This document shows, piece by piece, positions 6,712 through 58,839 of a stretch of DNA of 64,000 nt (position 1 is its first letter; every line of letters starts with the position of its first letter). The notes under the pieces were generated by a model that was given only the letters and a program-made list of their open reading frames with translations, made no database searches and was not told the DNA's origin. Source of the DNA: Blastocystis sp. Blastoise (lineage: Eukaryota; Sar; Bigyra; Opalinata; Blastocystidae). The stretch lies in NCBI GenBank assembly GCA_039096225.1, contig JBBPEB010000014.1, positions 558,001-622,000 of the forward strand, written 5' to 3'. Position numbers and translations under genes: made by a program.

Positions 6712-8124
6712 TTATTCATTAACTATTATTTCATCTTCTGAAACAGTATTATCAAGTTTATCACTAAATTCATCCTCCATCATTTCTCTATTGATATTAG
6801 TTAAGATTTTATTTGACACTTTAGATGATTTTCTAGTTACTTTACTACGGGGACGATCATCAAAATCCTTGATAAACTCATTCTCATCATCAATAAGAAG
6901 TCTCGAAGCTTGCCATGCACTTAAAATATTTCTTCTTGTAAAAGCTTCACTAAAAGCATCCTCAGATGCTGCTAATAACGAATATCTATTTGTTGTTTTA
7001 TAATATCTTCTAAATTTTGATTTATATACATTGTATATAACTAAATCAAGCGGTTGAAAGACACTAGTAGTATTTTTTGGAAGTACAATTACATCAATAC
7101 GGTTATTCTCACATAAACTAAGAAAATCAGTATCATTACGTGTTGTATGAGCATCAAGAATAAGTAGACAATAATCATTAGTACTATCAAGATTCATATC
7201 TTTTCTCTTTTTATTAACATATGGAAGAAAAACATCTTGAATCCATGAGTATAACACATGTGCATTTATCCATCCAGACTTAGCAGACCATACTTTTATA
7301 TAGGACAGATTTTGCTTATCTATTTCTTTAATATTATAAGTATCTCGATCAACAACATAAGAGGAAGGAACTGCAGTACCATCAGCACAAATACAACCAA
7401 TTAGTGTTGTATGAGTAACACTATTACCTTGTTTTGTTATTGGTAAATGATCATTATCAACTGCAACAGTAACTCTTGATCTTTTATCACCAGGAGTAAC
7501 CCATGACTCATCCATGTTGAATATAAGAGAAGTTTCGATTTTTCTTTTATTTATTACATAATGAATATTCCTATACAGTATCTTTGCATCTTTCTTTGTT
7601 GGTCTAGCTTTTTCTTCATAATTTGTTAGTGGTCTTTTCAATAGAATATTATTCTTTTTAAGCAGCTTCCTTACATACCCTTCTGATACAGTAATCATAC
7701 AGCCAATACCGTTTCGACACCTTTCAATTGATCTCTTACGTATTTCTTCAGCTATTTCATTCTTCGAAGGACAGTTATTCACATTAATTTGTGACTTAAT
7801 CCATTCTATTATTTCTACTTCTTCATTTTCATTAAGAACATGTTGATTACAACGATTATTAAGTGATACATCTTCATTCAGTTTCTTTTCAGAACGTTTT
7901 ATTGTAGACGGAGACACTTTAGTGATAGCACTAATACTAGATAAGGATAATTTCTTCATACCATTCTTTCCATTAAACACTTTTCTTATAGCACAGGACT
8001 TCTTTCTAGGACTTCTTTCTTTCTCAACTTCAGGATGATTCAGAACTTGATTTAGGGTTAAATTAGAATCAAGAATATCAAGATCAGGAAGGGGAATACT
8101 AGTAGTATTATCATTTGGAAAAAT
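6712..8124 (-). pseudogene. Pogo-like DDE_1 transposase, all but the first four codons; split by the nested element
   Basis: The open frame runs from 8124 to the stop at 6712. An N-terminal helix-turn-helix region (around LSLSSISAITKVSPSTIKRS) is followed by the DDE_1 catalytic domain: NMDES carries the first Asp, LLILDAHTTRND the second, and LPKNTTSVFQPLD the third acidic position. A Ser/Lys-rich acidic tail ends the protein. A GTG at 7980 is an internal codon rather than a start, because the 48 codons between 8124 and 7981 are open and coding-like. The missing start lies at 25529-25518 on the other side of the nested element: ATGATAAGAGGC joins in phase to ATT at 8124, giving 474 residues. 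The split copy cannot be translated as one protein unless the insert is excised. Confidence 0.9.
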
Positions 8125-18059: not shown

Positions 18060-20830
18060 ATATATGTTATTTTTTGTCTTTATAATATTATTATTATTCT
18101 ATTTTTATAATATTATATATTCTTTAGATTTATTGGTATTAATTCTTCATTCTTCATTCTTAATTCTTCATTCTTCATTCTTCATTCTTCATTCTTCATT
18201 CTTAATTCTTAATCTTAATTCTTCATTCTTTATTGTTAATTCTTCATTCTTAATTCTACTGTACATCTTACTCTAATTTTTCTTTTTTTACGTATAGATA
18301 TAAACTTTTCTTTTCTTTACTATTACGTCTTCACAAATTCTACTATTACTTCTTCGTCCTTCTCATTATACTTCTTATCCCTATCCTTTTCATTATTCTT
18401 CATTCTTCTTATCCTTTCATGATTCTTCTTTTTCTTCTTACTTTACTTCTTCTTATGCTTCTTTCACCTTTACATCTTATTTTACTTTTCATTATTCTTC
18501 TTCTCTACTATACTTCCTTTCCACTTCTCCTTCTCATTATAGATTTACTTCTTGTTCTCATTATTATTGTTTTTTCTTCTTTTATTATCCTTCTACATCT
18601 TCTTATTCTTATTTTTTCTTTTCTTCTTCTTCTTTTCTTTTTTCCCTCGTTATCATTTCCATTCCATTTTGTTCCTTTTTTTCCTTATTCTCCTTGCAAT
18701 TCTTCTCCTTTAGCTTCTTCCTTTTTTCCTTCTTTCCTTCATTCTTCTATTTCTACTTGTACTTCTACTCATATTTCTTCTACTACTACTTACTCTTTTA
18801 TTTTTTCTTCTATTTCTACAGCTACACTACTACTAATAATACTTCTTATTATTCTACTTATATTTCTGCTTATATATCTACTTGTAGTTCTGCTTTTACT
18901 CCAACTCCTACTCGTGCTTTTGCTTCTACTACTTTATTCTTCTCATTCTTCTTATACTTATACTTCTCCTTGCTATTATCTTTCTCTTTCTCTTTCATCT
19001 TCTTCTTTTTTTCTATATTCAATTTCTCATTCTTCTTCTTCTTTTTCACTTTTTCTTATTCTTCTTCTCATTCTTCTTCTCATTTTTCTTCTTCTAATGA
19101 TTCTCATTTTCTTATTCCTAATACTTATATTTATACTTCTGTTTCTACTACTATACTTTTATTTATTTATTTCTCTCCTTCTACGTCTACTTTTTTGTCT
19201 TCATCTCTATCTCCTTTTCTATATTCTCCTTCTATTTATACTTTTACTTTTCTTTATCCTTCCTCTTGTCCTTCTTCTCTTTCTTATCCTTCTTGTTCTT
19301 CTTGTTCTTCTTGTTCTTGCTCTTCTTCTTCTTGGCATTCCTTCCTCTTCTTCTTGTCCTTCTTCTTCTTCTTCTTCTTCTTCTTGTCTTTCTTCTTGTC
19401 CTTCTTCTTATCCTTCTTCTTATCCTTCTTCTTATCCTTCTTCTTGTCCTTCTCCTTCGTCTGTTTCTTTTCTTTCTCTTTCTTCTCTTTCTTCTCTTTA
19501 TTCTCTTTCTTCTCCTTATCCTCTTTGTCCTTCTTATCCTTCTTCTTATAATTTTTCTTCTTCTCCTCTTTTTTTCCTTCTTGTCCTTCTCTTTCTCTTT
19601 CCTCTTTTACCCCTACTTTTCTTTTTCCTTCTTATCCTTCTTCCTATAATTGTTCTTCTTCTCCTCCTCCTCTTTGTCCTTCTTATCCTTCTTATCCTTC
19701 TTATCCTTCTTATCCTTCTTATCTTTCCTATTATCCTTCTTATTTATACTTTGCTCCTCTCCTTCTCCATCTTTTTATTCTCTTCTTGCTACACATTTTA
19801 TTCTCATGTTTCTTCTTGCTCCATATATTCTTCTCTGTCTTCTTCTTCTTCTTCTTCTTCTTCTTCTTCTTCTCATTCTTCTTATCATTTTCTTTCTTTT
19901 TCTGCTTCTTCTTCGCTTTATAATTTCACTTTTCCTTATTCTTCTCTTTCTTTTTCCTTCATTTTTTCTCGTTCTTCTCTTTCCTCTCCTCATTCTCTTT
20001 GTCATTCTTATCTTCTTATCCTTCTCCTTCTTCTTCTCTTTCTTCTCTTTCTCTTTCCTATTCTCCTTCTTATTCATATGTTGCTCCTCTCCTTCTATTC
20101 TCTTTTGAGTCTCTTCTTTTTCCACTTTTATTCTCATATTTCTTCTTCTATACCCACATATTATCCCTTCTCCGTCTTCTTTTTCTTATATTATCCTTAT
20201 CCTTGTACTTCTACTTCTAATCATTCTCATTCTACTTATCCCTACCTTCTACTGATGTTTTTCTTTTTATGCTTATTCTTGGTTTATTCTTATTTTCTTC
20301 TCTTTCTTCTTTTTCTTATTCTTCTCGTCCTTATCTTTCTCTTTCTTGTTCTTATCCTTCTATTTCTCCTTCTCCTTGTTCTTCTTCTTCTCCTTGTTCT
20401 TCTCCTGTCTTTCTTCTTCTTGTCCTTGTCCTTGTCCTTGTCCTTATCCTTTTTATTCTTATTCTTGCCATTTTCATTGTCCTTGTCCTTCTTCTTGTCC
20501 TTTTCCTTCTTCTTGTCTTTCTTTTTGTCCTTGTCCTTGTCATTCTTCTTCTTCTTGTCCTTGTCCTTGTCCTTGTCCTTCTCCCTCATCTTATTCTTAT
20601 TCTTCTTGTCCTTCTTGTCCTTCTTGTCCTTCTCCTTCTCCCTCATCTTATTCTTGTCCTTGTCCTTGTCCTTGTCCTTGTTCTTCTATATCTCCTTGTC
20701 CTTCTACTTCTACTTTTTCTCTTTCTCATTTTACTTCTGCTGCTACTTTTTTATCAACTTCTATTATCATTCTTCATCTACGTATATTACTACCACTTCT
20801 TATTATAAATTTCCTATTCCTATTATTCTA
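18060..20830 (+). repeat. Polypyrimidine tract of about 2.7 kb (C/T on the plus strand)
   Basis: This is almost pure C/T made of degenerate TTCTTCTTC, CCTTCTTAT, TTGTCC and, at 18146-18256, CATTCTT/AATTCTT heptamers. The very long open frames here (for example 18419-20905) encode Ser/Leu/Phe/Pro strings in several frames at once and are compositional. The tract mirrors the polypurine tract at 9780-11990 in the opposite orientation. Confidence 0.9.
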
Positions 20831-22352
20831 AGAATCGTTTTTTTCATTCAATTGAAGTTAAATTCTCATTTTTTAAAACGCTATACACAATATTTGATAT
20901 ATTGAATTATATATATATTGATATATAAAACAATAAATAGAATTGTGTATATATGTTACTTTTATTAGTATGAAGAATAACATATATAGAAAAACATATA
21001 TTATATATATATTGAACATATATATATACTTAATCGGATATATTAGAATTCTATAATATAGATATAAATAAGCATATGTATAGAATGCTATATATATATA
21101 TATATATATATATAGAATTGTATATGTATGTAGAATAGATATACATATGTATTGAATAGTATACATGTATACATATATATATAAATTTATATATATTAAA
21201 TATTGTGTAGAAAATAGAAATTCTAATATATTAATATATTTATGTAGAATCATGTAATATATATATATATTCTTGATTAAAAATATTAATAGTTCATATG
21301 ATATGTCTAATTTGTTTTCTTTTATTCTTTCTTTTAGCACTATATATTGTTTAGTATTATCTTTTAAATCATTTAATTTATTTTTAACACTTTTTTAATA
21401 ACTTATAATCTATTTTTTGCTTTTTGTTTCATTTGATATATAATATATACAAACGATTGCATTTCTATAAATATGTTATTATAAGAGTATAATTTATTAT
21501 TTAAGTTTGCTCAGAAGAGTCGTGACAACAATATCTTTTGACTACCCATCCAGAAACATCATCACCTTGGGAATGGAACATAAACGTGTAATTTGAAATG
21601 TAACATCTGTAAACAAGTCTTCTTTTTTATGTTTTTTTGTTTTTTTATTCGATACCCTAGCTTTTACATTTATAGTAAAACTACATTCTCTAGTTGAAAC
21701 TTTTTACATACATAATTTTGACTCCATATGTTTTTACAGTCTCAAATTTTGTTATTTATTCACTATCTTTAAACTTATGATAGTTCACCTTAATCAAACA
21801 AAAACATATTTCCACTTCTTGTTGTGGCTGAACTGAATCAGTTACCAAATTATAAAACAAAAATAATTAACATGAATTTAATATTGATTTACAGATATCT
21901 TTGTTGTTAAATATGCAGTAATTAAAGCTTTAATCGTCTAAATATGTCAAAATTAAAATAAAGTATATTTTTGAGATTCTGGACAACAAATTTCATTTTT
22001 ATAGTGATTAATAAATGAAAAATCATGAAAAATTACATTGTAGTTTTTAAAAGCTTTATTCGAGAGCAATACAATATATTATTACACTATAAATAACCCT
22101 AATCAGTCGATATAAGTGTCTGAAGTATTTATACTATCCTTAATCCAAAAATTTGAGATAATTATATTTAATTTGTAAATAAAAATGCTTATCTTAAATT
22201 AAATAACTACTTTTCTAAATTATTATAATAATCTATTAAAATATTTCTTATGTTTTAATTACTACAAAATTTTTATGTAAGCTTTAATAAAGAAAATATA
22301 AATATATTCTTGAGTATATTTTTTCTAATAATGACAAAAGAAATAAAAAGAA
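20831..22352. other. AT-rich non-coding DNA of the nested element
   Basis: TA-rich sequence to about 21280 is followed by A/T-rich unique-looking DNA without coding potential. The 155-codon minus-strand frame at 21340-20873 is a Tyr/Ile string derived from TA repeats. Confidence 0.5.
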
Positions 22353-30244: not shown

Positions 30245-34511
<4,267 letters not shown>

Positions 34512-39358: not shown

Positions 39359-39909
39359 ATCATATATACTAGTTTTTAAATCATAAATAGGTTTTTCATT
39401 ACTTTGCAATTATTTATAGTTATAGTTAGATTAGTTATTCTCTTGATTGCTTATTTTTTAGGTTTTATGTATAATGTCTATTATTTTATTTGCCTATTCA
39501 TTATACTTAACCACAACGTGTTGTCTACAAACAAATATTAGCTTGTAACTACTTGAAATCGTTTTGTTATCATATAAAATCATATATTATTATTAATATC
39601 ATATATCTTTCCTTTTAATAATCTTTAGAAAATCATAAACTTATCTTTACAACGTTAATTAAATAGAAAATAAAAAAAATATTGTTGAAGATTTAAAATT
39701 AATGTTTTGTTTAACTAGATCATTTTATATCCTAGCCATAAAAAACAATATTCTATGTATTTATAAACTTAAGTATGTAGTATTCTTGTAAATAAGAGTA
39801 TATTATAAATATAAAAAGAAATGAGAAAATAATTGTGATTATTTTATTAGTATTAGTTAATTATTTAGTATTCCCAAGTATTTTTTAAATTGTTTTGAAT
39901 AGATTACAA
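39359..39909. other. Intergenic spacer
   Basis: This is AT-rich DNA between fimbrin and SAP18. No gene or distinctive motif is seen. Confidence 0.5.
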
Positions 39910-40305
39910 ATGCAGAATAACAGAATAGCAAGACCTATGGATAGAGAAAAGACTTGTCCTTTTCTCTTAAGAACATTTATTCGTTCTAATCAACACTTCC
40001 AAGAAAGTGAATTCACTATTCAAAGTGTTCCTTCAGACTGTGAACTTGATATTCATACTTGGAAAGATGCCACTATCATGGAGATTCTAACAATTATTAG
40101 ACAAGATAATATTGATTCAAGAAGAAAAAATGCTACTATTGATATATTAAAAGGTTATTTTACGAATAGTGGTCAATTTTATATAAAGAAAGTGGGTTCA
40201 ATCACATCAGATCAAAATTATGATAAGAAAATGACGCTTGATCAAACTCAACTTCGTATTGGTGATTTCTTACTTTTTGAAATAACCTTCTCTTCTCCTA
40301 TTTAA
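39910..40305 (+). CDS. SAP18: SAP18, Sin3-associated polypeptide / ASAP-PSAP complex subunit
   Basis: This is a single exon of 131 residues starting at the ATG at 39910 (a TTG at 39895 is ignored). The family hallmark RPMDREKTCPFLLRTFIRSN, corresponding to the PIDREKTCPLLLRVF consensus, is near the N-terminus. It is followed by the ubiquitin-like fold elements DIHTWKDATIMEILTIIRQ, the family VKEIGS motif as IKKVGSITSD, and the C-terminal LRIGDFLLFEITF. SAP18 belongs to Sin3-HDAC corepressor and to the exon-junction-associated ASAP/PSAP splicing complexes. A splicing-linked role would suit this intron-rich genome, but that remains inference. It lies about 1 kb upstream of the xylose isomerase gene on the same strand. 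Confidence 0.93.
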   Translation: MQNNRIARPMDREKTCPFLLRTFIRSNQHFQESEFTIQSVPSDCELDIHTWKDATIMEILTIIRQDNIDSRRKNATIDILKGYFTNSGQFYIKKVGSITSDQNYDKKMTLDQTQLRIGDFLLFEITFSSPI

Positions 40306-41328: not shown

Positions 41329-41419
41329 ATGACGAGTATGCTCAACTATATTAATATTATATATTTATGTTCTTTTATAGCTTATTTCCCTACTGTTTCA
41401 AAGATTAACTATGAAGGTC
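41329..41419 (+). pseudogene. xylA: Xylose isomerase, 5' part, truncated by the CACTA insertion
   Basis: Exon 1 is only seven bases (41329-41335, ATGACGA). A 45-bp GTATGC..TTATAG intron follows, and exon 2 begins at 41381. The product starts MTTYFPTVSKINYEG, matching the xylose isomerase N-terminus (YFPxIxKIKYEGPxS). The frame stops abruptly at the transposon border: 41417-41419 is the GTC target copy and 41420 the first base of the element. An unspliced reading from the same ATG is also open, but the spliced one restores the family N-terminus better. The rest of the gene is at 55291-56708. Confidence 0.92.
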
Positions 41420-42097
41420 CACTGGTAGGCATTTTCATGGGTCTGAAAAAGCGATACACTAGAAATTCTTGCTAACTATTTTTTAAGAAATTTTCAGTCA
41501 ATAATATGGAATCTATCAAGAATTTATTAAAAACTTAATTGGCTTATTACTATATATTGGCAAATTAAAATACATAGAATAGTCCAATTAAATTAATGAG
41601 AATATTCGGGAATTTTTAATTAAGATCTTTGAAAGATACGTTTGCTTTTATTATCAAAAATTGAGAGTTTTTTTTATTCGTAGTTACTTTTTAGTATTAA
41701 AACAAAACACACTATATTTTTAATAAAATAATAAAAACAGTAAAAAATAAAAATATAATTTATATTTTTCTAAACCTATTGCATTGTGATTTAATAAAGT
41801 ATATTGCAGTCAAATAAAAGTACCTATAAATAGTGAATCTGTTAAGATAATTGTTTATCTATTGAAATATATATAATGAAATAATATATTATTAAAGAAA
41901 CTAATATATACCATAGTAATTGATGTTTGCTAATTCGTGATCTATAAAAAGGAATATGATAAATTAAAATAAAATTGAATTTAAAAAAATACATAAAATA
42001 AGCTATAATTATTGTTTTTAGATTTATGATCTATATAATATATGTAATTAATAAAATAAACAATAATATTATATATAATTATATAATAAATTACTTT

Positions 42098-42194
42098 CAC
42101 TATTAGGCACTTTTGGCCTTTCAGAACATATGATTGGCAAAATCAACTATTTTATCCAATCAATTTCCTTAAAACATCAAAATGCCTAATAGTG
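42098..42194. mobile_element. 97-bp CACTA-type MITE
   Basis: Inverted repeats CACTATTAGGCACTTTTG and CACTATTAGGCATTTTG terminate a 97-bp sequence flanked by TTT duplications (42095-42097 and 42195-42197). The ends resemble those of the surrounding large element (CACTGGTAGGCA), so a related transposase probably moved it. It has no coding capacity. Confidence 0.88.
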
Positions 42195-42569
42195 TTTTAC
42201 AAATTTACTCTATTTCATTACTATGCTATAAATGATAAGTTAATACATAAAATTCATATTATATACCTATTTAAGTGATTAAAATTCATCTTTCAACTTT
42301 TATATCATAGTGATGACCCTGAATGCAATCCATTCTAACTTTGTTAAATTATTCTATAAATATAAGGATACACATAAATAATTATTATAATTCATATACT
42401 TATTTTCAAGATAATATAATACATATTCATAAAATAAATTAAAATACTAAAATTAAAAAAATATATGAAAAGATAGAATCTATCATATTCCAAATAAATA
42501 AAAAGAAACAATAGTTTAATAAAAAAAGTGAAACAATAATAAATAAAACAACCAATAGTATATACTTAC

Positions 42570-43425
42570 CTATGACGACGATTGTGTTCCACAACTGCGT
42601 CATAACTCTTTTGTAGTTCTTCAATAATAGCGTAGTTGGCTTTATATGAATACGTCGTTTTGTCAAAAAAGGAAGGATTTTGCTTCCATTCTAAACTCTA
42701 TATATGTATATATAGATTAGTATATAATATTATAACAAGTTACCATAAAGTCATTTTTCAAACGTTTTTTATCAATAATAGAATACCCTTCTTCATCTAT
42801 AACATTAAAACCAAAAGACGCGGCAAGATTTCCATTATTCTTTTTGTCATACAATGATTTTTTTACACATTTTATTATAACATAATCATCTAATGGTTCA
42901 GCAAACTTGTTTTGGGTCATATACTCTTTTATCACTTGAAGAATAGTAATATACAATTTGTTGTTTTCATCAATTAAACATTTATTATTCGTCTGTTTAT
43001 ATATATGCTTAGCTTCAGCTAACTCATTCTCTTTCACAACAAAAGGAATAAACCTTAAACAAGTCTATATTATAGAATGTATAATTTTATATAAATACTT
43101 TTATTATTCTTGTCGAGTTCTTAATAGCTGGAACCTTTATGTTTCTTATCAGAGCTTCACGTCGAAAAAAAGTTTCCATATTATATGTTAAATAACGACA
43201 TTTTTTATTATCTAAATATATAATAGAAATAGATATAGTTATACTTGTTTTCTCAGGTAATAGTATTAGACGATAGAACTCATGAAAAGCTTCAAATAGT
43301 ACCAATTTGAGTTTTTTCATTCTCTTTATATCTTCATTTATTATTTTATCTCTAGAACTCGATATACACAAGAAAGAAACATGTATTATACTTGGGTGAC
43401 ATTTCTGCACTTTTTTATAAAACAA
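42570..43425 (-). CDS. Unrecognised CACTA cargo or accessory protein, at least three exons
   Basis: Minus-strand segments 43425-43099, 43064-42744 and 42697-42570 join in phase through short GT..AG introns, then reach a GTAAGT donor, so a further 3' exon is expected and was not located with confidence. The likely start is an internal ATG (MKKLKLVLFEAFHEFYRLIL); the open frame upstream of it has no ATG. The middle exon encodes EEGYSIIDKKRLKNDFM, and the last contains WKQNPSFFDKTTYSYKANYA and a basic HNRRHR. No family is recognised. CACTA elements often encode a second DNA-binding protein that binds subterminal repeats, and this could be its equivalent (inference). Confidence 0.5.
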
Positions 43426-44572
43426 AATAAAAATGGATTTTTCTAGAAAAATATTTTGTATTTATGTAATATTTTAAAAAAGATTTTCAATATTATCTAA
43501 AATAGTCATATTAATAAATAACTATGAAATAAAGTAGCCTATTTTATTCTTACAATAGTGAAGATATACTTCTTTGTATCATCTATTCCATATAATGATA
43601 TATTAAAGTGAATATATTGTTATTCTTGACGAATAAATGAGATAACAAAAGACATTAAAGAAAAATTATAATAATCATAGAAATATAAATTAATGTTTCT
43701 AATTTTACCGATAACATATGAATAATTAATTATTTATAAGTTACACTACCAACTTACAGAAAGAGGTATATTACTCTCGTATAAATAAATAAAAGATAAT
43801 ATGGATTCTAAATATTTTCTTATAATCCATAAAACGTACTCATTAAGAAACCACATATATATTAACTGTAGTCTGATATATATCTAGACTATTTCATATA
43901 AACTATAAACTTTATATATTTAAATACAAACCTTTTTAATAATTTCGTTATACTTATATAATATATTTATATACGTAGCATATTTCACTAGATCATATGA
44001 TGATGACACATATTAAGTAATTAAGAAGCAATTCATTATCAAATCTGTCTATATATATAATTTAATATTTTTATATACATTTTTTATAAATAATATTTCA
44101 ATTAATAATAGAAATAATAATAGTATAAATAGTAAATAATCTTATAAAAAAAATAAGTAGGCCAATAAATGGTGATAATGTAATGTATGATATATATATA
44201 TATATATATACAATATAGAGTAATTTTCAAAAGATATTTAACAGAGACTAAAATGAAAGCATGAGAACAATCTATTTTATTTCTTCCTAAATAAACTGTA
44301 ATAAATAGCTTAATACATAAAGATGTATACAAAATATATATATATACCATTGATCATGTTGTTGAAAGACATAGTATATAATGTTCATTAATATCCCAAT
44401 TCATCAAATATAATTTATATGAGTTAATATTTACTCTACGCTAAATGGAAATCTAGCATGCTTTATAAATACTTCCTTAGTCATTATGTAATAAATGGAA
44501 TTTATTTAAGTACTGTCTCTAAAAAATATATATGAGAATATTGTTAAAATAATATATTTTTTAATAAATACA

Positions 44573-44640
<68 letters not shown>

Positions 44641-45624
44641 TATAATATTTTAATTACAATATTATTCTTTATACTAATGACAGATACTTATAATAAGAAA
44701 CTAAAATTAGATGTTATCTATATAAGTAAAAAATGAATCATTAAGTCTAATGGTACATAACATAAATAATATAATATTGAAATGTAAATTTTGTAAATAA
44801 ACAATAAGATATATAATATAATATCAGAGACATAATATATAAGAAAAATAAATACATAAACAGTCAGAATAATAACATATATATAATATATACTTCTATT
44901 TGTTAGTGATTAATACTAGATTCTTTTAATATCGTTGACTTCATTTCTAATATAAAAAGAATATTGAATCAAAACAATTAATTCGAAATCTCAATGAATA
45001 ATTATGTATTTAATAATTCAGGTATACTATTATCCTTTTTTGAAATTTAAGTTTACATCACATGATAATATAATTGATGTTCTTTTTCCTATAATAATAC
45101 AGTTTATATATATTAGTACGTCTTATATATGTATAGATATATATATTTAAAGTAATTAAGATCAAGAAATATAATAATAATAAAAATGTTAACAAATTAT
45201 ATTTATTATTTAGAAAATGATATTATTATTTATTTATATATACACTATATAATTGACTTTTTTATTTAAAATACGGCCTAATGCAGTTTGTATATATATA
45301 TATTTGGTATTTAAATTTCATCATAAAATATTTCAAAAGAAATTTTATTGAGTTTCCGCTAACTGCTAAAAATTAAATCTTATTACGAGTTACATGAATA
45401 AATACATGATTAAGATTATTATTTGAGATAAGTAAAGAATTATCGCAATTCAAGAAAATGATGTTGAATTTGAAATCATTAGAGTTGTTACTATCAATCA
45501 AAAGACTGACATGCTATTGCTTATGTATTGAATAGAGAAAGAATCGGCTTGGAAGAATGTGTGTAAACAAAAATTTAAAAGAAATTATTGAAAAAAAATT
45601 CTAATTTTTATTTTGAGTTTATTC
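43426..45624. other. Non-coding part of the CACTA element
   Basis: This AT-rich DNA includes a long (TA)n run at 44575-44636. Open frames here are Tyr/Ile strings only. It should contain the transposase promoter. Confidence 0.55.
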
Positions 45625-48600
45625 ATGACCAAACGTTTATTTGATTTACCTAGATTCGAGACAAAGCAAAAGAGTAAACATCTTATTTGTTGTATCAAAT
45701 ATATAGCAATCCCAAGGTATGATGACCATCATGAGTTAGAAAATGATGCTTTGAATACTTCTACATTACTCGAAGGATTGAATGAAGATGTTAGTGATAA
45801 AAATCTTAGTGAAACAGAATCAATTTATGATTTACTTATGAATAATATTGTGAATCAGGTAATTTTTTATAAATTTTTATAAATGTATTAATTAATAATG
45901 TTAATTTGTTTATTTTATTTATATATATTCATATAGAAACGATTATCAAAGAATAATGAAACAAATCAATCAAAGATAGAAGATATCATTTATTCTTGTT
46001 GGTGTGAATTGAGAGTTAGCACAGAAAAAATAAAAAGACTATATGAATTAGCTAATAATATAATCAAACTGTTGAATCCTGATAGTGATTTATTGTTTAT
46101 TCCAAAGAATGGGCAAGATATAATCAGAAAGTATTGTAGAACTCATTCAGAAACGCCCATTCATAAGAATATATATGTATGTAGTAAGTGTAATTCATTA
46201 ATATCATTCAACGGTGGACGAAACCTTCTAGCTCAAGAAAAAAAACAATGCAATAACAAAGACTGTAATCTTAACTTAGGTATATATATATTATACTATT
46301 AAAAATCATCTTTATATTTTCAAATATATATGATGATTACTACCTTTATAATATATTTTTAATAGTAAATTTCTTTATAATACATTTCTTTATAATATAT
46401 TTCTTAAGGCATATTTCATTTTATTACATTTCTTAATATTTTTTTCTTAATAGTATATTTCTTATTATTATATTTCTTATTATTATATTTCTTATTATTA
46501 TATTTCTTAATAGTATATTTCTTTGTAATGTGTTTCATTATAATATGTTTCTTTACATTTTATATCTTAATAATAAATTTTTTTATATATTATATTTCTT
46601 TATAATATATTTCTTAATAATGTTTTTCTTAATATATATTATATTAACATTTAATATTTATTATTTATGTCATGATAAAGGATCAAAGGTATCAATTATT
46701 CCATTAATTCCAAGAATTCGATATATGGTTTCTTCGATGTCTTTAATGGAAGATATTTCTTATTATACAAAAGAAGAAATACAGTATTATTTATCTATGC
46801 CAATTGAAAGTCTACCTAATACTCTTCCTTCATATATGTCAGGAAAAAATTATAGAAGATATATAGAATCAGTATTAGATAATGGTGACATTTTTCTTCT
46901 ATTCGATATGACATGTGATGGTATATGTGTATTCTCAAATCCTATTATAGAAAGTAATAAATCTTCATTTCCTATACTTCTTAAACTACTAAATTACAAT
47001 AAAGAACGAATAAATGATCAACGTGTATTCTGGACTTATTGTATTACTAAAGAATCATTATCAAATACAATTCTTACTATATTAATGAAAGAGTTGTCTA
47101 TTCTATCTTCTGGTATTGAAATGGATGTGTTTATAAATGGGAGAATTGAGAAAAAAAGAGTTGTAGCTGTATTATTAAGCGCTTATGGCGATTGCGCTGC
47201 TGTTACTAATGTTGGAAGTTTTACCGGTTCTTCTTCTTCATATCCTTGTAGGTATTGTGAACTCTTTTGGAATAGAACAAATGATGATTTTCATCTGGGA
47301 ATTAAATGTGCATATGAAAGTATCAAAAATTATGTTACTATTGATGATACAAATAAAAAACTTCTGAATATTCGTTATCCATCTATTTCTCTACCATTAT
47401 ATAATTCTCATAATTCTTCATCCTCACCTCCTCAGGAAGATACTATTATTACTAGTCAAATTCTTATTGAATCTATTTCTGATGATCATATATTTACAGA
47501 TGCATTCGACACAATAACATATAATCAAAGAACTAAAGAATCTATTCAAAATAATCGCGAATTATCATCTGAAAATGGATCAAATATTGGAATAAAGCAA
47601 AAACCTAGTGTTTTTGAATCACTAACTTATTTTGATGCATCTACAAGCTATACACTTGATCCTATGCATTTATTCAACAATGTTTGTACTCTTATCTTAA
47701 ATCTCTTATTCCATTATAATGTTACAGATTATACTACTAAATTAGCTAAAAATGATAGTATAAATCCTCAGAAACTACTTATGACATATTGTCTAGATGA
47801 TGAGAATATGTCTATTCTTAATTCAAGAATACTAGCAATCAATACACTCTACAATGATAATGAATACGAATTTAGATATATATTGAATGAGAAAAAATTC
47901 TACAATATGTCCTCACATACTAGAATTTTTTTTACTTCATGTATTCTTCCTCTTATTACTTTAGATTTCAGTGCTTCTGATTCTCCACTTATTTTACTTA
48001 TTGATCCATTAGCAACTATTATACGTAATGTCTACATATATCGTGGAAATACTTCACAGAATATTTTAAATATGTTTAAAGATCAATGCTATATATTCTG
48101 TTTTTTATGTGAACTCCTGCTTCCAAAAGAAATTTTGAATACACAGTTACATCTTATTCAACATCTTTATGATTCTATTATAAACTCTGGTTCTATATAT
48201 TATGCTTCCACTTTTCAGTCAGAAAGATTCTATTCGTTTCTTAAAAGAGTATCCTTTGGAAGAAAAAACTTTAACGAATCATGTATTCGATGCGTAATTG
48301 AGAGGGAGGTACTAGATATAAATATGAAAAAATACTCCAACGATTATATATTAGATGAATTCTCAATAGATTCTAATAGTATTACTAATAATGATAATGA
48401 ATCTAGAATTAGTATTGATATACATCCTCAACAAATAATATCTGATACTTTTAATAGTATTATTATTAATTATAATGGTATTGATACAGTGAAAGGAATA
48501 AGAGGAATTGATAAAATTAAATTGTATAAAAATGATATGAAAGATATAGCTAAGATTATTCTATCATCAAATGATAGTATACTTAAAGAACGTCTCTATC

Positions 48601-49223
48601 AAGGCATAGATATCAATGAAATTATATATGTTGATGATATTCTAAATGATCCTTCCTTGTGTAAAATAATTTTTAATAATTTAGAAAAACTAGAAATGAC
48701 ATTTTACTCTGAGATAATATTAAATGATTCAATAATATTTAATTCTTCTGATATTGACCAAGGAATAGAAACAATTGACAATTCATATATTATGTACTTC
48801 ACTTATGACACAATAAATAGTCATAAAGTTCACTTAATTAAAGCTCTATGTTATATCCAAATTGGATCTTTATTATTGATAAAAAAGCATGAATATCCAT
48901 ATGCACGAGTATCAACAACAGGATTGTATTACATAGTTAATGATTCTAATGAAGTTCTGTCAAAAAGAAAGGAATATGTATCTAGTTTCATATCTATATC
49001 TGATATTGAACCTTTTAATTTAATAATTGCAGATGTCCATGAGTATATCAATCGAAATAATGATGAAACATATGCAGAGGTATATATATATATATATCTT
49101 TTTAATAAAATTTCTTTAATATAGGGAAATGAGAAAGACGATCAAGATAATACTGGAGTAGTTGATGGAAGAACAGTTATCACGAATACTGTGTTTATAA
49201 CTCGACATAATAATACAATATGA
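45625..49223 (+). CDS. tnp2-like (CACTA/EnSpm) transposase
   Basis: Four exons (45625-45858, 45937-46279, 46681-49079, 49125-49223) join in phase to 1,024 residues without a stop. The first exons hold a conserved-looking cysteine cluster (CSKCNSLISF, KKQCNNKDCNL), probably a zinc ribbon. The catalytic region resembles the tnp2 / Transposase_21 family: LLFDMTCDGICVFSNP with the first acidic residue, SFPILLKLLNYN, then TNVGSFTGSSSSYPCRYCEL corresponding to the LAGFTGHSSxYPCRYC signature, and TYFDASTSYTLDPMHLFNN corresponding to the DxMHL block. The C-terminal part (YASTFQSERFYSFLKR) matches the late E-containing region. The protein looks full length and potentially active. Residues that can be read from 46530 to 46680 are intron. 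Confidence 0.88.
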
Positions 49224-52200
49224 ACATAAAACTATTATATTTCTAGTATTAATAATATGTTTCATTCTTAGTAAGATATATATTACATAATATTTTTGTT
49301 ACAATTTTATTTTTCTAATACGGTTATCTAATCATATTTATGTCATTATATTATTTTGTTTCGATCTATATTATAAAGTAAAACAGTATTGAATAAATGA
49401 CTTTTTTAAGCCTTAAAAAATAAGAATTTTAACAGAACTATTACATAAAATACTCATTCAGTAATCATTAAAATAGCAAATTATTATTACTACAGGTATA
49501 TCAATTATGATTTTTAATTATTTATGATAATTCTATTAGCCAAATATTTATCATATAATACAATAAGATTATTTTTTTTATTAATATAACTTTGTGTTAA
49601 TTATTTAAAATGACATATATTCAGATCTGGGATATCAATATTGTAGTTAGTAACAAAGTATTAAACATTATAGAATTCACGAAGAATAATTATGTAGAAC
49701 AATAAATCATTAAGAATAAAAACGAGTTTAAATTCCTGAAAAATTTGTATCTACTATTTATGATATTATTGTTAAGGCTATCCAATAAACAACAAATGTT
49801 AACATCAAAAAATTATTAATGTGTTTAGAATCACTATTATAGATATCCTCAGAAATAAGGACAGTAAATGGAATTATATAAAAGGTTAAAGGCATCTTTC
49901 AGGAAACAAATAAAGAACAATAAGAATTGATAATCATGATAATAGATGAATTGGATGCACAATCTGTAAAAAATAATAACACTAAAAAGAATATTTATAA
50001 TCATCAGTATTAGGATATAATGTAATTCTTTAAAAGCAGCAAACAAAATAATATAATTATTTACAGAATATATAAAATAAAGTAGTTATAAACATTATTA
50101 GATTAATAAATGTGAGAGGTTTCAAAATAGTTATAGACTTAATAGAAGGTATATCAATTAAAAGATTGTCAAAAGTTATAGGATTGATAGAAATTACTAA
50201 CATTATAGATTAATGATCATTATAGAATAAATAGAGGTTATAAAATTAATAAATTATAAATGTTTGAGGATAAATAGAAGTTATAAGATTTATAGAATTA
50301 ATATATGATATATGATTAGTACTGTATATAGAAGTTATAAGAATAATAGAAGGTGTAGTCGCTCAAATTAATAGATAATAATGCTAGTAGAATGTATAAG
50401 ATTAATAAAAGGTATAAGATTAATAAAAGGTATAGGATTAAAAGAAAGTATAGGATTAGTGAATTTTAAAGAAGTAATAGGATCAATAGACCATAAGATC
50501 AATAGAAACTACAAATTAATAGAATGTATAGATGTTTTACTGTTAATACAGTTTATGGAGTTAATAGAAGTTATAGAAATCATATAATTAATAGAATTTA
50601 TATAATAATGCTACTAATAAAATCGTTAAGACAAATAGATGGTGAAGAAGCTATATTAATAGTAGAGATTATAAGATTAATGGATGGTATAGAAACTATA
50701 AGATTAACAGAGATTATAGAACTAATAGAAGTTAAAGACATTTTATGATTAATAATAGTAATAGAATTTCTAAGATTAATAGGATATAAATGAGTAATAG
50801 AAATAATAGAATACATAAGATAAAAGATACTATAGTATTAATATAATAAGAAATATAAATTGTTAGAAGTTAAAAGTAAAATAGAAACTATGACATTAAT
50901 AGATTCTATATGAGGAACAGAAGTTATATGACTAATGAAAGCTGTAGAAGTTACAAAAATAGTAGAAATTATAGAAGTTATGAGATTTATGGAATTTCTA
51001 GGATTAATTTAGATAATAGAGGTTATAAAAATATCGGATTACTAGTATAAAAAGTAATAGAACTAATAGAATTAGTAAAATTAGTAAAATTGATGGACGT
51101 AGTAGAATTAGTAGAATTGCAGAATATATACGATTATCTTTAATATATCTAATTGAACTTTTAATATTTATCAGTTATAGTAATTATGTGTATATTAGAA
51201 TAATAGAAGCTAAAGGGTTAATATACGTTATAAGATAATTAAACTTTATAAGACGAATGAACGTTAAAGAAAAATAAGCATTAACGGATTAATACGCTTT
51301 ACAGAGTAATTAAAGGAATAGGATTAATCGAAATAATCAGACTGATGACTTATTTATAGATAAAAAATATCATTATGAAGAGACAAATATCGATTAAATA
51401 ACGAGTAACATTAAAAATAATTATTTCATAATCTTTTTTTTTCAACATATTAATACTTTGTAAAGTGTAGATAAATATTATCATAGTACCAAAAGGTGAG
51501 AATAGATTTTGTGGTATTAAATGCTAATATTGGACGATTTATTGATTAGTTTCAATCCTGAAATATAATATAATAGTAATAATATTGATTTTATATTAAA
51601 TATCAATAGTTAGATATAATAAAAGTCCATGAAATTAATACAACAATTCTATAATATAATAATTCTAACATATATTTTTATATTAGTATTGATATACAAT
51701 TATAATAGAAATGTAAGAGATTGTGATACATATCAAAAAGCTTATTTAGATGTAATAAGATATAAAATTAGGATATAAAATTGTAATAATGGTTCTACTG
51801 AATAGAAAAAAATATTATAAATCAGATAGTTGACCAATAGTTATACTTCAAATAATCAAAGAAAGGCAACAAATATAGAAGAAGCAATGACAATAGGAAT
51901 AATGTCACTAGTAGCAAATATTAAAAAGAAGTAGTAGCATATATTTGTAGTGTATAAAAAGTGTTTGAAGAATACTATTAGAAAACGACATTCATAGTAT
52001 AAATTGTATATAACCTCTAGTAAAATTTAGAGTAAACAACAGTACTTTATTGACTAATATTAGTTTATTTTGAATTATTAAATTAGCTAGTAAAATAAAA
52101 AACAAAAAGGAATTAGAATAATATCATATATAGTAGTATTTATTATAATACACATAATATTAGTAGAATCATGAAATAATACATAAACCAAATAAATGAC

Positions 52201-53086
52201 TGTTATAAAGATATAATTGAATTTAGAAAAATTCTGACCATCATACATAAATAAAATCAAAATTAGTACCCGAGTAATGCAGTAGGTAAGTAGTAGCAAT
52301 AACAATTCAAATACAAATTGATACGTACAAAAATATGACTGAATAAGTAAGAATATCATAGAAGGTTTAGTAAGAATAAAAAATAGGAATACAATTAGGG
52401 ATATCAATACAAGTGACTGATAAGTGGAAGGAATGTTATTAACTAATAACAATAGGATAATTGTAATGCAACTCAAAAAACAATTAAATATTAATAGAAT
52501 ATTATTGCATAATATGTCAATAGTTATAATTCATTTTGATAGCAGATAACAATAAATATCATATAGAAGAGTTAATAAAAATAAATCAAAAAAGAGATAT
52601 GATAACAGAAGTATTCATTATACATTTGATATTCAGTAATATATATTTATAGTAGTAATAAAGGAACATAATTAAACAGTAGTATAGTAAGAATCTTGAA
52701 TACATGGATATAAATTGCTATGTTATTTTTTTTCAACAAGAATTGAAGTTGATAATTTTGTAGAACTAATATAATATTTCAAACAAAAGTAATAGCATAG
52801 TAGGAGTGGAAGACAGTAAATAAATTCCAGAAAGAATAATCTACATAATAGGAAGAATAAGATATGAAATAAGTTAGAGAAAAACATATAAAATTGTATA
52901 ATGTTCTATATGATATATTAAAGATAAATTTATAGCACTAATATCTAAGAAAAGTATGACGTTCAATTAAAGTAAATTAAATAAATGAAAGAAAAACACA
53001 TCATATTATGTACATTAAATGAAATGAATATATACACAATGAATAGTAGAATAAAACATATCTATACAATAAATACATTACGCAAA

Positions 53087-53090
<4 letters not shown>
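49224..53090. repeat. Low-complexity region with degenerate repeats of about 18 bp
   Basis: From about 50090 to 51130, and more weakly to 52600, variants of ATTAATAGAAGTTATAAG follow one another with drifting length and composition. Open frames are Ile/Glu/Val strings of this repeat. In CACTA elements, arrays bound by the accessory protein are expected near the ends; whether this internal array has that role is unknown. No gene is seen. Confidence 0.55.

Positions 53091-53142
<52 letters not shown>
53091..53142. repeat. (TA)n microsatellite
   Basis: This is an uninterrupted TA run of about 50 bp. Confidence 0.95.
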
Positions 53143-53147
<5 letters not shown>

Positions 53148-53270
53148 AGTATAATAAGAATATACAAAGTAACATCATCATCATCTTCATCAATTTAAGC
53201 ATCTTTTTATTTTTATAAAGTATAAATTATCTTTTGTTATTTTTTTATCTTTAAATAATTTGTATATTAA

Positions 53271-53425
53271 TAAAATATTAAATAATAAAATAATAAAATA
53301 ATAAAATAATGAAATAATAAAATAATGAAATAATAAAATAATAAAATAATAAAATAATGAAATAATAAAATAATAAAATAATGAAATAATGAAATAATGA
53401 AATAATGAAATAATAAAATAATGAT
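53271..53425. repeat. (AATRAAAT)n 8-bp tandem repeat
   Basis: About 19 copies of AATAAAAT or AATGAAAT, with the A/G variant alternating irregularly. Confidence 0.85.
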
Positions 53426-53645
53426 AACAATATATGTATACCTATAACTTCAAATCATTCAAATTAACTTCATTTCTTTCTTTGCCTTCAATGTTTTTTC
53501 TATGTTACTGTTCTTAATCTTCAACTGCTCTATATATATAGAGATATTTTCTTCATGTTTCTGTCTTTAATCTTTTAATCAATTAATTGCTTCTCAATTC
53601 ACATCGTCCACATCGTATATGTATAATAATAATAATAATCATAAC

Positions 53646-53792
<147 letters not shown>

Positions 53793-54005
53793 TTTATCAT
53801 AATTTACCATTTTAAATAAAAAAGACTCAACTAAGATCATAATTCACGAATGGAAAAAGAAAATTAGTATCCTATATAATATAATATATAATAAACATAT
53901 AATAAAAATAAAATAAAATAAACAAATAACAAAAGAATAATTTTAATAAGAAATTGAAAAAAAATGAGTAAATGTAAATAAAATAATAAAAAAATATTTA
54001 TATAC

Positions 54006-54198
54006 CTTCATTAATCTGTTGGTTGGCTGTTTGAAAGAAGTGTAAATGAGAATAACCAAGGAACCTAAAAGAATTAAAAAAGTAAATGTAAAAAAATATT
54101 TTACAAGAAATAAACCAACATGATACTCTAACGAATCATTTTGAAATAAGCCAAGGAGACTGTCTGGACTGAAGAGGAAACCCAAAATGGAAAAAATC
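54006..54198 (-). CDS. Possible exon of a small membrane protein in the CACTA element
   Basis: Between a TTTTAG acceptor and a GTATAA donor the minus strand encodes IFSILGFLFSPDSLLGLF, then YFFTFTFLILLGSLVILIY, a strong membrane-spanning stretch, and KQPTNRLMK. Neither a start exon nor a terminal exon could be fixed. It may be a captured host exon. Confidence 0.35.
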
Positions 54199-55270
54199 TA
54201 AAAGAATCATGTTGCAAAATAGGAAATTTTTAATAAATAAATACTGATATATTATGTGTTGAGCTTAAAAACGTAAACAATTCTTATTATAAACTCTAGT
54301 TTTAGTTATAGACAATATATTTAAAATATAAGATGAATTCACAGTTAAATTCAAACTATTTAGTCAAAAAATAAATATTTTCATAAAAAAATAGTTTTTT
54401 TTATTTTGATATATTTCATGATAGTTTATTAGAATTTTAGTTTATAACAGTTCAAACACAACCATATACAAACAATACTGTTGTATCCCAATAATCAAAA
54501 CTTTGAAAATAAAAACTCATTTTTCTTTGACTCTATGATCTGTTTGCTTATTCTTTTGAAAACTATTAATTTTTACTTGAGACTTCTATTCATATCAGAA
54601 TTAATTATAAAAGCAACTCATAAAAAGACTTTTATTTCATTCTGAGAAAAGTCCGTCTTTTTATGATCCCCGATATATTTTTCTAATGGGGAATTTTATT
54701 TCATATTGAAATCAAAAGAAAAAACCATTTTAAAACCTTTGTGTCCTCTTTTATACAATAAAATATAGATAGACTCAGTTTTGAACAAGAAATATATTCC
54801 CGTAAATATTTAAAAAACAAAAATCTGGTCTAACTGTCCATGATACAAATAGGCTCGGCTCTTTTTTTCAGTGTAAAAAAAATACAAAATTTTGACTTTT
54901 TGGCTGAATTTTTGTTTTGAGCCATAGAGGTCAGCTGTTTGACTTTTAATTACATTTATGACTCTAAAACGGTCTAAACTTTAAACAGAGAGACATAATG
55001 TTTTAAAATATTGACCCCCATTTTTCATCAGAATTACGACTTAAAACAAAAGAAAAACGGTTTGGATATCGTGTGACCCTCTATAAATAAAAAATAATGT
55101 CAATTCTTTAATAAAATAGGTTTAATATGGTCTTTGAGTCTAAATCAAAAGTCGTCTTAAAATTTTTGTGAAAATTTTCTTTTTTTTGCCTAAGTCTTTT
55201 TTTTATTGAATTCTCATTGGCTAAATGAGTCTTGAACGAAAATTAACCAATTAAAACCCTTTAAAAAGTC
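54199..55270. other. Right subterminal region of the CACTA element
   Basis: This is non-coding AT-rich DNA of higher complexity than the repeat arrays. No clear subterminal iteron was identified by eye. Confidence 0.5.
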
Positions 55271-55290
55271 AAAAGTGCCTACCAGTGGTC

Positions 55291-56708
55291 CTGAATCTGA
55301 TAAGATTCTTGCTTTTAAGTATTACGATGCTGATCGTGTTGTGATGGGAAAAGTATGATTTATAAATTAGAATAGGATGTTTATATCTATATGTTTTTCT
55401 TTAGAAAATGAGTGAGCATCTTCGTTTTGCTTGTGCTTGGTGGCATACTTTTTGTGCTGGAGGTAATGATCAATTTGGTGATCCTACTCTTCCTAAGCCT
55501 TGGGATGATGGTACTAAAACATTAGAAATGTGTAAGAAACGTGTTGATGCTGCCTTTGAATTCTTTACTAAACTTGGAGTTCAATATTATTGTTTCCATG
55601 ATCGTGATATTGCTCCTGAACTTGATACTCTTGAGGCTACTAATCATTTATTAGATCAAGTAAGTGATTATATGCTTGAAAAGCAAAAAGAAACTGGTGT
55701 TAAGTTATTATGGGCTACTGCCAATTGTTTTGGTGCTCCTCGTTATATGAATGGTGCTTCTACAAATCCTGATGCTCATGTATTTGCTGCTACTTGTGCT
55801 CAAGTAAAGAAAGCTATGGATCTTTGTCTTAAATTAGGAGGTGTTAACTATGTATTTTGGGGTGGTCGTGAAGGTTATCAAAGTATTCTTAATTCTATTC
55901 CTAAAGAAGAATTAGATCATATGGCTCGTTTTATGCATATGGCTGTTGATTATAAGAAGAAGATTGGTGCTACATTCCAATTATTAATTGAACCTAAACC
56001 TAGAGAACCTACTAAACATCAAGTATGTATTTTTATTTATTTATTATTATCTTTATTATTATATATTTATTATTATATATTTATTATATAAATATAATAA
56101 TTAAAATTGATTTTTAGTATGATTATGATGCTCAAACAGTTATTGGTTTCCTTCGTACTTATGGTTTAGAAAATGATTTCAAATTAAATATTGAACCTAA
56201 TCATACTACTCTTGCTGGTCATGATTATGAACATGATATTGTAATTGCTTCTCAATATGGTATGCTAGGTTCTGTTGATGCTAATACTGGTGATACTCTT
56301 CTTGGTTGGGATACTGATCAATTCTTAATGGATACTAAAAAGGCTGTTATTTGTCTTTTAGCTATTATTAAAGCTGGTGGTTTACATAGTGGTGGCTTAA
56401 ATTTCGATGCTAAAGTAAGAAGAGAATCTACAGATTTAGAAGATCGTTTTATTGCTCATATTGGTTCTATGGATACTTGGGCTCATGCTTTATTAATTGT
56501 AGAAAAAATATTAGCTGATGGTAAACTTGATAAACTTGTAAATGCTCGTTATTCTAGCTATACTGAAGGATTAGGTGCTAAAATACATAATGGTGAAGCT
56601 ACTTTCGATGAATGTGAACAATATATTCTTGAACATGGTGAACCTAAACCTATTTCTGCTAAACAAGAAATGTTTGAAATGGTACTTAATCAATATTTAA
56701 GATTATAA
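55291..56708 (+). pseudogene. xylA: Xylose isomerase, main 3' part (residues 16-438 of the uninterrupted gene)
   Basis: Exons 55291-55352, 55405-56022 and 56118-56708 are in phase, and joined to the 5' part before the transposon they total 438 residues, the standard xylose isomerase length. The active site is complete: YYCFHDRDIAPE carries the catalytic His and Asp, IEPKPREPTKHQ the metal-binding Glu and catalytic Lys, NIEPNHTTLAGHDYEHD the next Glu/His pair, GSVDANTGDTLLGWDTDQF the Asp ligands, and NFDAKVRRES the last Asp. FWGGREGY is also present. The enzyme converts D-xylose to D-xylulose. No internal stop or frameshift is seen in either half, so the disruption is probably young. An internal ATG (55408) could at best give a protein lacking about 38 residues. 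Confidence 0.95.
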
Positions 56709-57095: not shown

Positions 57096-57778
57096 TTATA
57101 ATATATATTCATCTAAACCAAAAACTTCGATTTCTTCTACTTGGAAATAAACACAACTTTGATTTTTAGTTATGGAAGAAAATTGAATTTGATCATAATG
57201 AGTATCATAAGCATGATTCGATTCAATTGAAATCCAACCACCTTGTTGCTTATTACATTTATCATCAATAAATAAATCAAAACCATCTCCAAAAACAGGA
57301 CCACAACGTTGATGATTGTATATAGCATATTTTGGAGATTTACAAAGACTTTTCACAGGACACATCTGATCATTTATTGCTAATAAATATATGAACGCTT
57401 CTTTATCTTCAACAAACTGCCTTACTATATATATGATTTCATATAGATTAATAAATAGTTAAAAAAATAAACAAATAAATGTAAAATAAATAAATAAATA
57501 CGTTGATGAGGAGGAGTTATCCAAGATTTTGATGTATATCCTCCAAAAATAACAGAGTCAGATCCAATCTTACATTTGATAATAGTGACAGTCTCACCTC
57601 TCTGATCACACTTTTTGTGAAAACAATTTGCAGAAAAACCATCTTGAGTCCCTCTGTAAAGTAAGTCCCATTTTTTATCTTCACCTAACCAATTGAGGAT
57701 TACCGAACAACTATTCATGTTTAACAAAACAGAATCAGGAAAGTAATCAACCATCATGTCATTCGACAGATAAACCAT
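57096..57778 (-). CDS. TLDc-domain protein
   Basis: Exon 1 (57778-57502) and exon 2 (57424-57096) join in phase to 201 residues. The TLDc signature is clear: WDLLYRGTQDGFSANCFHKK, GETVTIIKCKIG, FGGYTSKSW, and, after the intron, a segment equivalent to AFLFSL (KEAFIYLLAIND), then GPVFGDGFDLFI and a C-terminal VEEIEVFGLDE, corresponding to the family ending xEVWGL or xEVFGV. TLDc proteins of the OXR1/NCOA7/TBC1D24 type act in oxidative-stress protection and bind V-ATPase; in many protists and fungi they occur as numerous stand-alone copies (family knowledge). The ATG at 57778 is preferred to an earlier alternative codon. Confidence 0.88.
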
Positions 57779-58839
57779 TCTAACCCATAAAAATAAAACA
57801 TATCTAGATTTGTAAATTGAAAAAAACCAAAAAGACTGTGTATAAACTGTATAATTCACTGAAATACAAAATATTTCCCATGAAATCACTAAAATTTTAA
57901 AACCTGCTTAACTTTTTAAATACTTATTTAGTATTTATTATGTGTTTTTCTTTAGTAAAATGATATCTATTGATGAACATGATGAATAATAGACACAATT
58001 TATTAATTCATAGAAAAATATAAGCTTTTGTTTATCTATTGTGATTACGTTTTTTATTCAATTGCCACTTTTACAAGTAAGAATGCATCGTTGTTAGATC
58101 TATAGGATCAGAAAATATTACTTAAGATTTATTTTTCATTTGGTTTTCATATATATTTGATTTTCTTTGTATTGTATACTTTTTATCATCTCAAAATAAT
58201 GGTTATAAACACCTTAGCAAGCAATGATTACTAAATAATTCATATTGATAATTCTTTGTATCGATTATTTTCAATACTTTGAAATTCTTACGATTCATGC
58301 TTGTATAATATTATTAAGCATGAATTATGTAGGTTTTACTATCAAACAAATAAAATAGAGATCTGTTTTTTAAAAATAAATAGTTTAATGATTAGTATAT
58401 TATTTATAAAACTGACTAACAACTGAACTAATATATATGAAATCATTAGGTAATAAACAAGAAATAATAAATGAAATGAATTTCAATGATAATTGTTTAA
58501 TTGATTCTAAATAAGGAATTCGGACTTCTATCACGGTAAAACAAGTTTCTGATGACTTATTTCTTTTAAATTATTGAGAATGAAATCTTTTTTTAAATGA
58601 AAAGTGGTATTTGTCTGTAACTCTTATCATAACACGAAATATCTTATATATTTAAACCAAGCACTATTATGTTATATATATACATATACTCTCTCAATTG
58701 TACTTGATAAATGAACTCTTAAAAATGAAGTATTAATATTTCTTTTTCAGATCAATTCTGACTTTCTGAATTGGTTTTGGCGGTTTTTTCACCACTTTGA
58801 AGAATCGTTCAATTATCGTTAGCTATTACAAATATATGA
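57779..58839. other. Divergent intergenic region
   Basis: This is AT-rich unique DNA between the TLDc gene and the long right-hand gene. No gene is seen. Confidence 0.5.

Follow-up and report, generated by a model that had tools for sequence, protein, structure and literature searches.

Probable recent insertion of a CACTA-like DNA transposon into the sole xylose isomerase gene detected in an assembly of Blastocystis sp. Blastoise

Transposons of the CACTA/En-Spm (CMC) superfamily generate target-site duplications of 2-4 bp, usually 3 bp, and the architecture of their TNP2 proteins includes the DUF4218 domain, which follows Transposase_21. Further hallmarks of the superfamily are a DDE catalytic triad within an RNase H fold and subterminal repeats to which a TNPA-like protein binds. 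Genes disrupted by transposons are reportedly exemplified by the maize Spm alleles. Here, we analyze a window of 64,000 nucleotides (contig C8, positions 558001-622000) from the 33.3-Mb, 34-contig assembly of Blastocystis sp. Blastoise (taxid 3128533, Stramenopiles), in which a class II xylose isomerase (XI) gene is interrupted by an insert of 13,868 bp. Very likely, a DNA transposon of the cut-and-paste type, CACTA-like, has recently inserted here into exon 2 of XI, a gene for which the assembly yielded no second copy.

Removal of the insert (41420-55287 in window coordinates) together with one GTC turns the flanks into a single-frame gene of 438 residues plus stop, with three short introns, all of which start with GT and end with TAG. 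Over the break, the reconstructed protein aligns without gaps to two solved XIs, 1a0c (query residues 3-436, E value 4.7e-156) and 5nh4 (query residues 3-435, E value 7.7e-153). The break falls between YEG and PES; the same stretch reads YEGPKS in 1a0c and YEGPES in the eukaryotic relative P0036, which confirms by homology the continuity of the two halves. All nine metal or catalytic positions checked are present (H101, E232, K234, E268, H271, D296, D307, D309, and D339), and we take their roles to be metal-binding and substrate/catalytic. The protein scores 38.5 bits on the Pfam profile of the XI TIM barrel (PF01261), above its cut-off of 31.1. Scanned exon by exon, the gene has two matches to the NCBIfam model TIGR02630, at 319 and 258 bits; both fall short of the model's cut-off of 533, which is set for the whole protein. 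The original prediction of an XI gene split by a transposon, with one 438-residue frame and all catalytic motifs after removal of the insert, is thus borne out, the split itself by the inverted ends, the GTC duplication, the internal transposase gene, a near-identical copy elsewhere, and a genome-wide family. Its assignment of the first 15 codons to 41329-41419 holds for the spliced codons, which are not contiguous, a 45-nt GT-AG intron lying inside this stretch. The features of the gene and the insert are as follows.

41329-41335, plus strand: XI exon 1 (ATG ACG A), from the reading frame, the GT-AG border, and the alignment to solved XIs from residue 3
41336-41380, plus strand: XI intron 1, 45 nt, GTATGC...TATAG, from its GT-AG borders
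41381-41419, plus strand: part of XI exon 2 before the insert, last residues ...KINYEG plus one base, from the reading frame
41417-41419, plus strand: left copy of the target-site duplication GTC, read directly
41420-55287, plus strand: CACTA-like transposon, 13,868 bp, from its inverted ends, the target duplication, and a second copy at C28:499660-513527
41420-41431, plus strand: left inverted end CACTGGTAGGCA, from the terminal sequence
42098-42194, no strand assigned: nested 97-bp miniature element with ends CACTATTAGGCA and its own duplication TTT, from the inverted ends and the duplication
42566-43402, minus strand: second element gene, approximate limits, P0129 = WA158_002129, 227 aa, from related frames in other elements
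45625-49223, plus strand: putative TNP2-like transposase gene of about four exons, approximate limits, large open frame at 46437-49124, from the frames and relatives
55276-55287, minus strand: right inverted end CACTGGTAGGCA, from the terminal sequence
55288-55290, plus strand: right copy of the target-site duplication GTC, read directly
55291-55352, plus strand: part of XI exon 2 after the insert, from the reading frame
55344-55346, plus strand: Met34 codon, the first in-frame ATG 3' of the insert, from which a start would give an XI of 405 residues, from the frame
55353-55404, plus strand: XI intron 2, 52 nt, between exons 2 and 3
55405-56022, plus strand: XI exon 3, from the reading frame
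56023-56117, plus strand: XI intron 3, 95 nt, between exons 3 and 4
56118-56708, plus strand: XI exon 4, stop included, from the reading frame

The insert has a G+C content of 21%, starts with CACTGGTAGGCA and ends with TGCCTACCAGTG. A scan of the window for CACTRNTAGGCA, with one mismatch allowed, yielded 4 matches, all exact, compared to 0.41 expected from shuffles; these are the two termini of the insert and the two termini of the nested miniature element.

Transposase P0121 has a 100% match at C28:505724-508036, and around it termini at C28:499660 and C28:513527 enclose exactly 13,868 bp, the same length as the insert in XI. A BLAST alignment of the two copies spans 13,872 columns at 99.928% identity and contains 2 mismatches and 7 gap openings; the gaps lie within or beside homopolymer or TA runs, which are also frequent sites of sequencing error. 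The flanks of the C28 copy are unlike those of the XI locus, and it has a duplication of its own, ATA. Such a near-identical second copy, with other flanks and its own duplication, points to recent transposition rather than a chance chimera. The element has moved recently, and the comparison is compatible with either order of the two copies as well as with a common third source. We also observed that the C28 copy lies within an open frame of 1,803 nt, whose phase is kept from one side of the element to the other; the right-hand part of this frame has no Pfam match.

The two copies belong to a sizeable family. Genome-wide, CACTRNTAGGCAYTTT has 110 matches (58 forward and 52 reverse), compared to 0 for the backwards control pattern; 100 of these places were listed, and from them ends were paired by position and orientation. 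We compared 24 end pairs, of which 19 belong to long elements and 5 to miniature ones (the nested element included), leaving out 7 more miniature pairs and a long pair at C15:1019301. In 18 of the 24 pairs, the longest duplicated stretch measured 3 bp, with 3-bp duplications at 5/5 of the miniature elements, whereas a 3-bp match occurred in only 6.3% of 552 mismatched pairings. Among the 40 places scored, out of 87 candidates, for the right-end 888 bp of the element, identity is 100% at the XI locus and C28 and 78-82% at the other 38; the left-end 678 bp has full-length matches at the XI locus and C28 only. The transposase has at least 78 matched pieces in the genome, some of them several pieces of one copy, and a protein search that depends on shared short words, run against some 5.8 billion sequences, returned 8 transposase relatives, all from Blastocystis sp. 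Blastoise.

Other observations on the family concern its arrangement in the genome. Pairs resembling the nested 97-bp CACTATTAGGCA element occur at many other places. In a CACTAGTAGGCATTTT subfamily, same-strand pairs lie about 217 bp apart (for example, C5:712166/712383, C8:1380378/1380595, and C13:330172/330390), the other pairs being inverted. The loci at C1:396475 (L035) and C10:30992 (L061) have, by eye, a common flank in opposite orientation; either the stretch is duplicated or the contig ends are redundant there. The location of the C28 copy and several others in open frames raised the idea of a family preference for coding exons, which a phase test did not bear out: open stretches of at least 200 nt were found at 9/23 sites, compared to 46.9% of 3,159 control window positions, and at 240 nt the respective values were 6/23 and 35.0%.

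The Pfam domain DUF4218 matched 6/6 aligned transposase members (best E value 0.00017, below the curated cut-off). Among 9 further copies scanned, DUF4218 matched 7/9 and Transposase_21 matched 1/9 (E value 0.019), again all below the Pfam cut-offs; the single Transposase_21 match, itself weak, lies upstream of a weak DUF4218 match. The second gene is conserved among elements, and its protein, P0129, had no Pfam match at an E value of 1. A profile built from the same six transposase sequences matched no solved structure at an E value of 1. A Pfam match to RYYR-CCHC was also seen (E value 0.00014, below the cut-off); the matches to Cas9 WED and MIC5 we took as chance. In its mode of action the element most probably resembles CACTA transposons, and we name it CACTA-like mainly on the strength of its inverted ends and duplication length, supplemented by the sub-threshold TNP2 profile matches. 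The CACTA label proposed earlier stands as far as the ends and the duplication are concerned; the TNP2 matches lie below the Pfam cut-offs.

In the mechanism that we propose, a possibly autonomous transposon would have inserted very recently into the XI gene. A transposase predicted to be active would have recognized the CACTGGTAGGCA ends and opened the target with a stagger of 3 bp; GTC on both sides of the insert would be the product of repair. From the normal XI start, translation would run into a stop codon within the element after 33 residues, about 18 residues past the junction, after MTTYFPTVSKINYEGPLVGIFMGLKKRYTRNSC, so that no full-length XI would be made from the filled copy. The insert has probably switched off this copy of XI, with loss of XI activity as the predicted outcome and a physiological effect as a presumed one.

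A search for a second intact XI in the assembly, suggested together with the original prediction, found none by any of three routes. A protein search detected no second XI in the 34 contigs; the TIGR02630 family model, which found matches in 6/14 control genomes, had two matches in the assembly, both at the XI locus in the window and none elsewhere; and a 101-base empty-site query matched the assembly only as two halves, at the XI locus. A tree was built from 61 rows, namely, the window XI plus the first 60 among 120 listed matches; in it, the window XI falls in a 100/100 clade with P0001-P0004, on a branch of 0.055, compared to 0.15 for its sister P0001. The shorter branch gives no sign of decay or relaxed evolution, and the insertion, being young, has left undecayed the downstream part of XI, which carries the catalytic residues. 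The assembly also contains a xylulokinase gene: a piece on C21 matches the xylulose kinase 4bc2 (E value 1.3e-22). The bacterial xylulokinase model TIGR01312 has 8 weak matches in the genome; a C24 piece among them is a glycerol kinase, and others lie on C16, C25, and C26.

None of the 120 XI relatives listed (of 8,000 scored, with a lower length limit of about 241 residues) is more than 88% identical to the window XI, and none is named Blastoise; XI therefore seems to have no entry among deposited proteins that are 241 residues or longer. The same annotation does name the second element gene (WA158_002129). These findings suggest that XI was left unannotated, or was called shorter than about 241 residues, in the deposited Blastoise proteins.

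Several points weigh against the proposed recent insertion of a CACTA-like transposon. All Pfam matches of the transposase lie under the curated cut-offs, which leaves membership in the superfamily unproven as judged by this protein. Among the 24 end pairs, three have duplications of 4 bp, one has just 2 bp, and two have none. The AlphaFold prediction from six transposase sequences reached a mean predicted local distance difference test (pLDDT) score of 42.3, too low for use; the alignments contain invariant Asp and Glu residues, and this fold model is too poor to place a DDE triad among them. With respect to the consequence, hemizygosity or culture heterogeneity is possible, and an N-terminally shortened XI could be made from Met34.

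The first of these alternatives, that the insertion affects one chromosome copy or part of the culture while an empty allele makes XI and the assembly shows the filled one, is compatible with a transposon insertion and differs from it in consequence. We regard it as a real, if tentative, possibility. The undecayed XI coding sequence and the recency of transposition fit it, as does the presence of some sequence twice in the assembly (the flank shared by C1 and C10), by which alternative copies can occur. The empty-site query, matching only as two halves, and the lack of a second XI locus in the 34 contigs speak against it, although this absence is not decisive because assemblers drop alleles. 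We consider improbable a further reading, in which Blastoise carries a currently mobile family of the CACTA type and XI is still polymorphic for the element in a reversible way, excision restoring xylose use, so that the culture or species would mix cells that use xylose with cells that do not.

A shortened working XI is likewise an unlikely outcome. A transcript would arise from the element's right end or from a cryptic sequence, and translation would start at Met34, giving the 405-residue protein; all nine of the metal and catalytic positions lie at residue 101 or later, and four metagenomic relatives (P0001-P0004) are listed with a start at Met34 or Met38, which may reflect gene calling beside an intron. 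However, the open frame 5' of the break ends at TGA 55233 with no ATG within, and both solved XIs shown (1a0c and 5nh4) have the N-terminal segment.

Splicing of the entire element as an intron of about 13.9 kb is very improbable: of the possible pairings between 3 donors and 8 acceptors close to the ends, seven would stay in frame and meet no stop, but chance alone should supply some in-frame pairings, none of the seven uses a TAG acceptor, unlike all three XI introns, and those introns are just 45, 52, and 95 nt long. Least credible is an assembly chimera, for, although the two element copies are nearly identical and repeats are where assemblies fail, a misjoin would leave no 3-bp duplication at exact inverted ends with the gene in frame across them, and the copy on C28 has other flanks and its own duplication.

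Taken as a recent transposon insertion, the locus is a clean case, in Blastocystis, of a catabolic gene broken by a DNA transposon where searches detected no other copy of the gene, and it reveals a sizeable CACTA-like family in a 33-Mb assembly. The loss of XI is young, hemizygous, or bypassed. Loss of, or allelic variation in, xylose use, as the original prediction had it, is a sound expectation from the sequence, and a simple prediction for growth on xylose follows from the split gene. The locus is also a caution for annotators, given that a gene split by an insert is apparently absent from the deposited proteins.

Among the other features of the window, XI has as neighbors a SAP18 protein upstream (39895-40302) and a TLDc-domain protein downstream (57428-57889). 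A DDE_1 superfamily endonuclease protein at 6712-7980 on the minus strand (Pfam E value 2.6e-19) probably represents another DNA transposon. Two long open frames, at 30245-33400 on the minus strand (1,051 codons) and at 18419-20905 on the plus strand (828 codons), have no Pfam match at an E value of 0.01; the latter lies within a stretch of extreme base skew.

In the literature searched, with partial coverage that included few subscription journals or preprints, we found no publication on the Blastoise genome or on XI, xylulokinase, or CACTA elements in Blastocystis. The Blastocystis ST7 genome, at 18.8 Mb according to a 2017 paper (PMC5608401), compares with the 33.3-Mb assembly analyzed here; neither 'xylose' nor 'transpos' occurs in the main text of that paper, and PMC3129679 contains 'xylose' 0 times and 'transpos' once, in the methods. 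That literature yielded no description of such a CACTA-like mobile family in this group; the mechanism of insertion is itself ordinary.

In comparison with the CACTA/En-Spm (CMC) superfamily, the element shares ends starting with CACTR, mostly 3-bp duplications, a large transposase gene accompanied by a smaller one, and the existence of miniature derivatives. It differs in the restriction of the returned transposase relatives to Blastoise and in a second protein without a Pfam match, and the DUF4218 and Transposase_21 matches of its transposases are weak, with scores under the Pfam cut-offs. With transposon-disrupted genes such as the maize Spm alleles, the Blastoise XI has in common an exon insertion, a target duplication, and an otherwise intact frame, whereas the host here is an anaerobic gut stramenopile and the affected gene an XI with no second copy found. 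The gene product resembles the class II XIs 1a0c and 5nh4 in its near-full-length ungapped alignment and in the retention of the catalytic residues, and the Blastoise gene differs from them in carrying three introns and a transposon insert.

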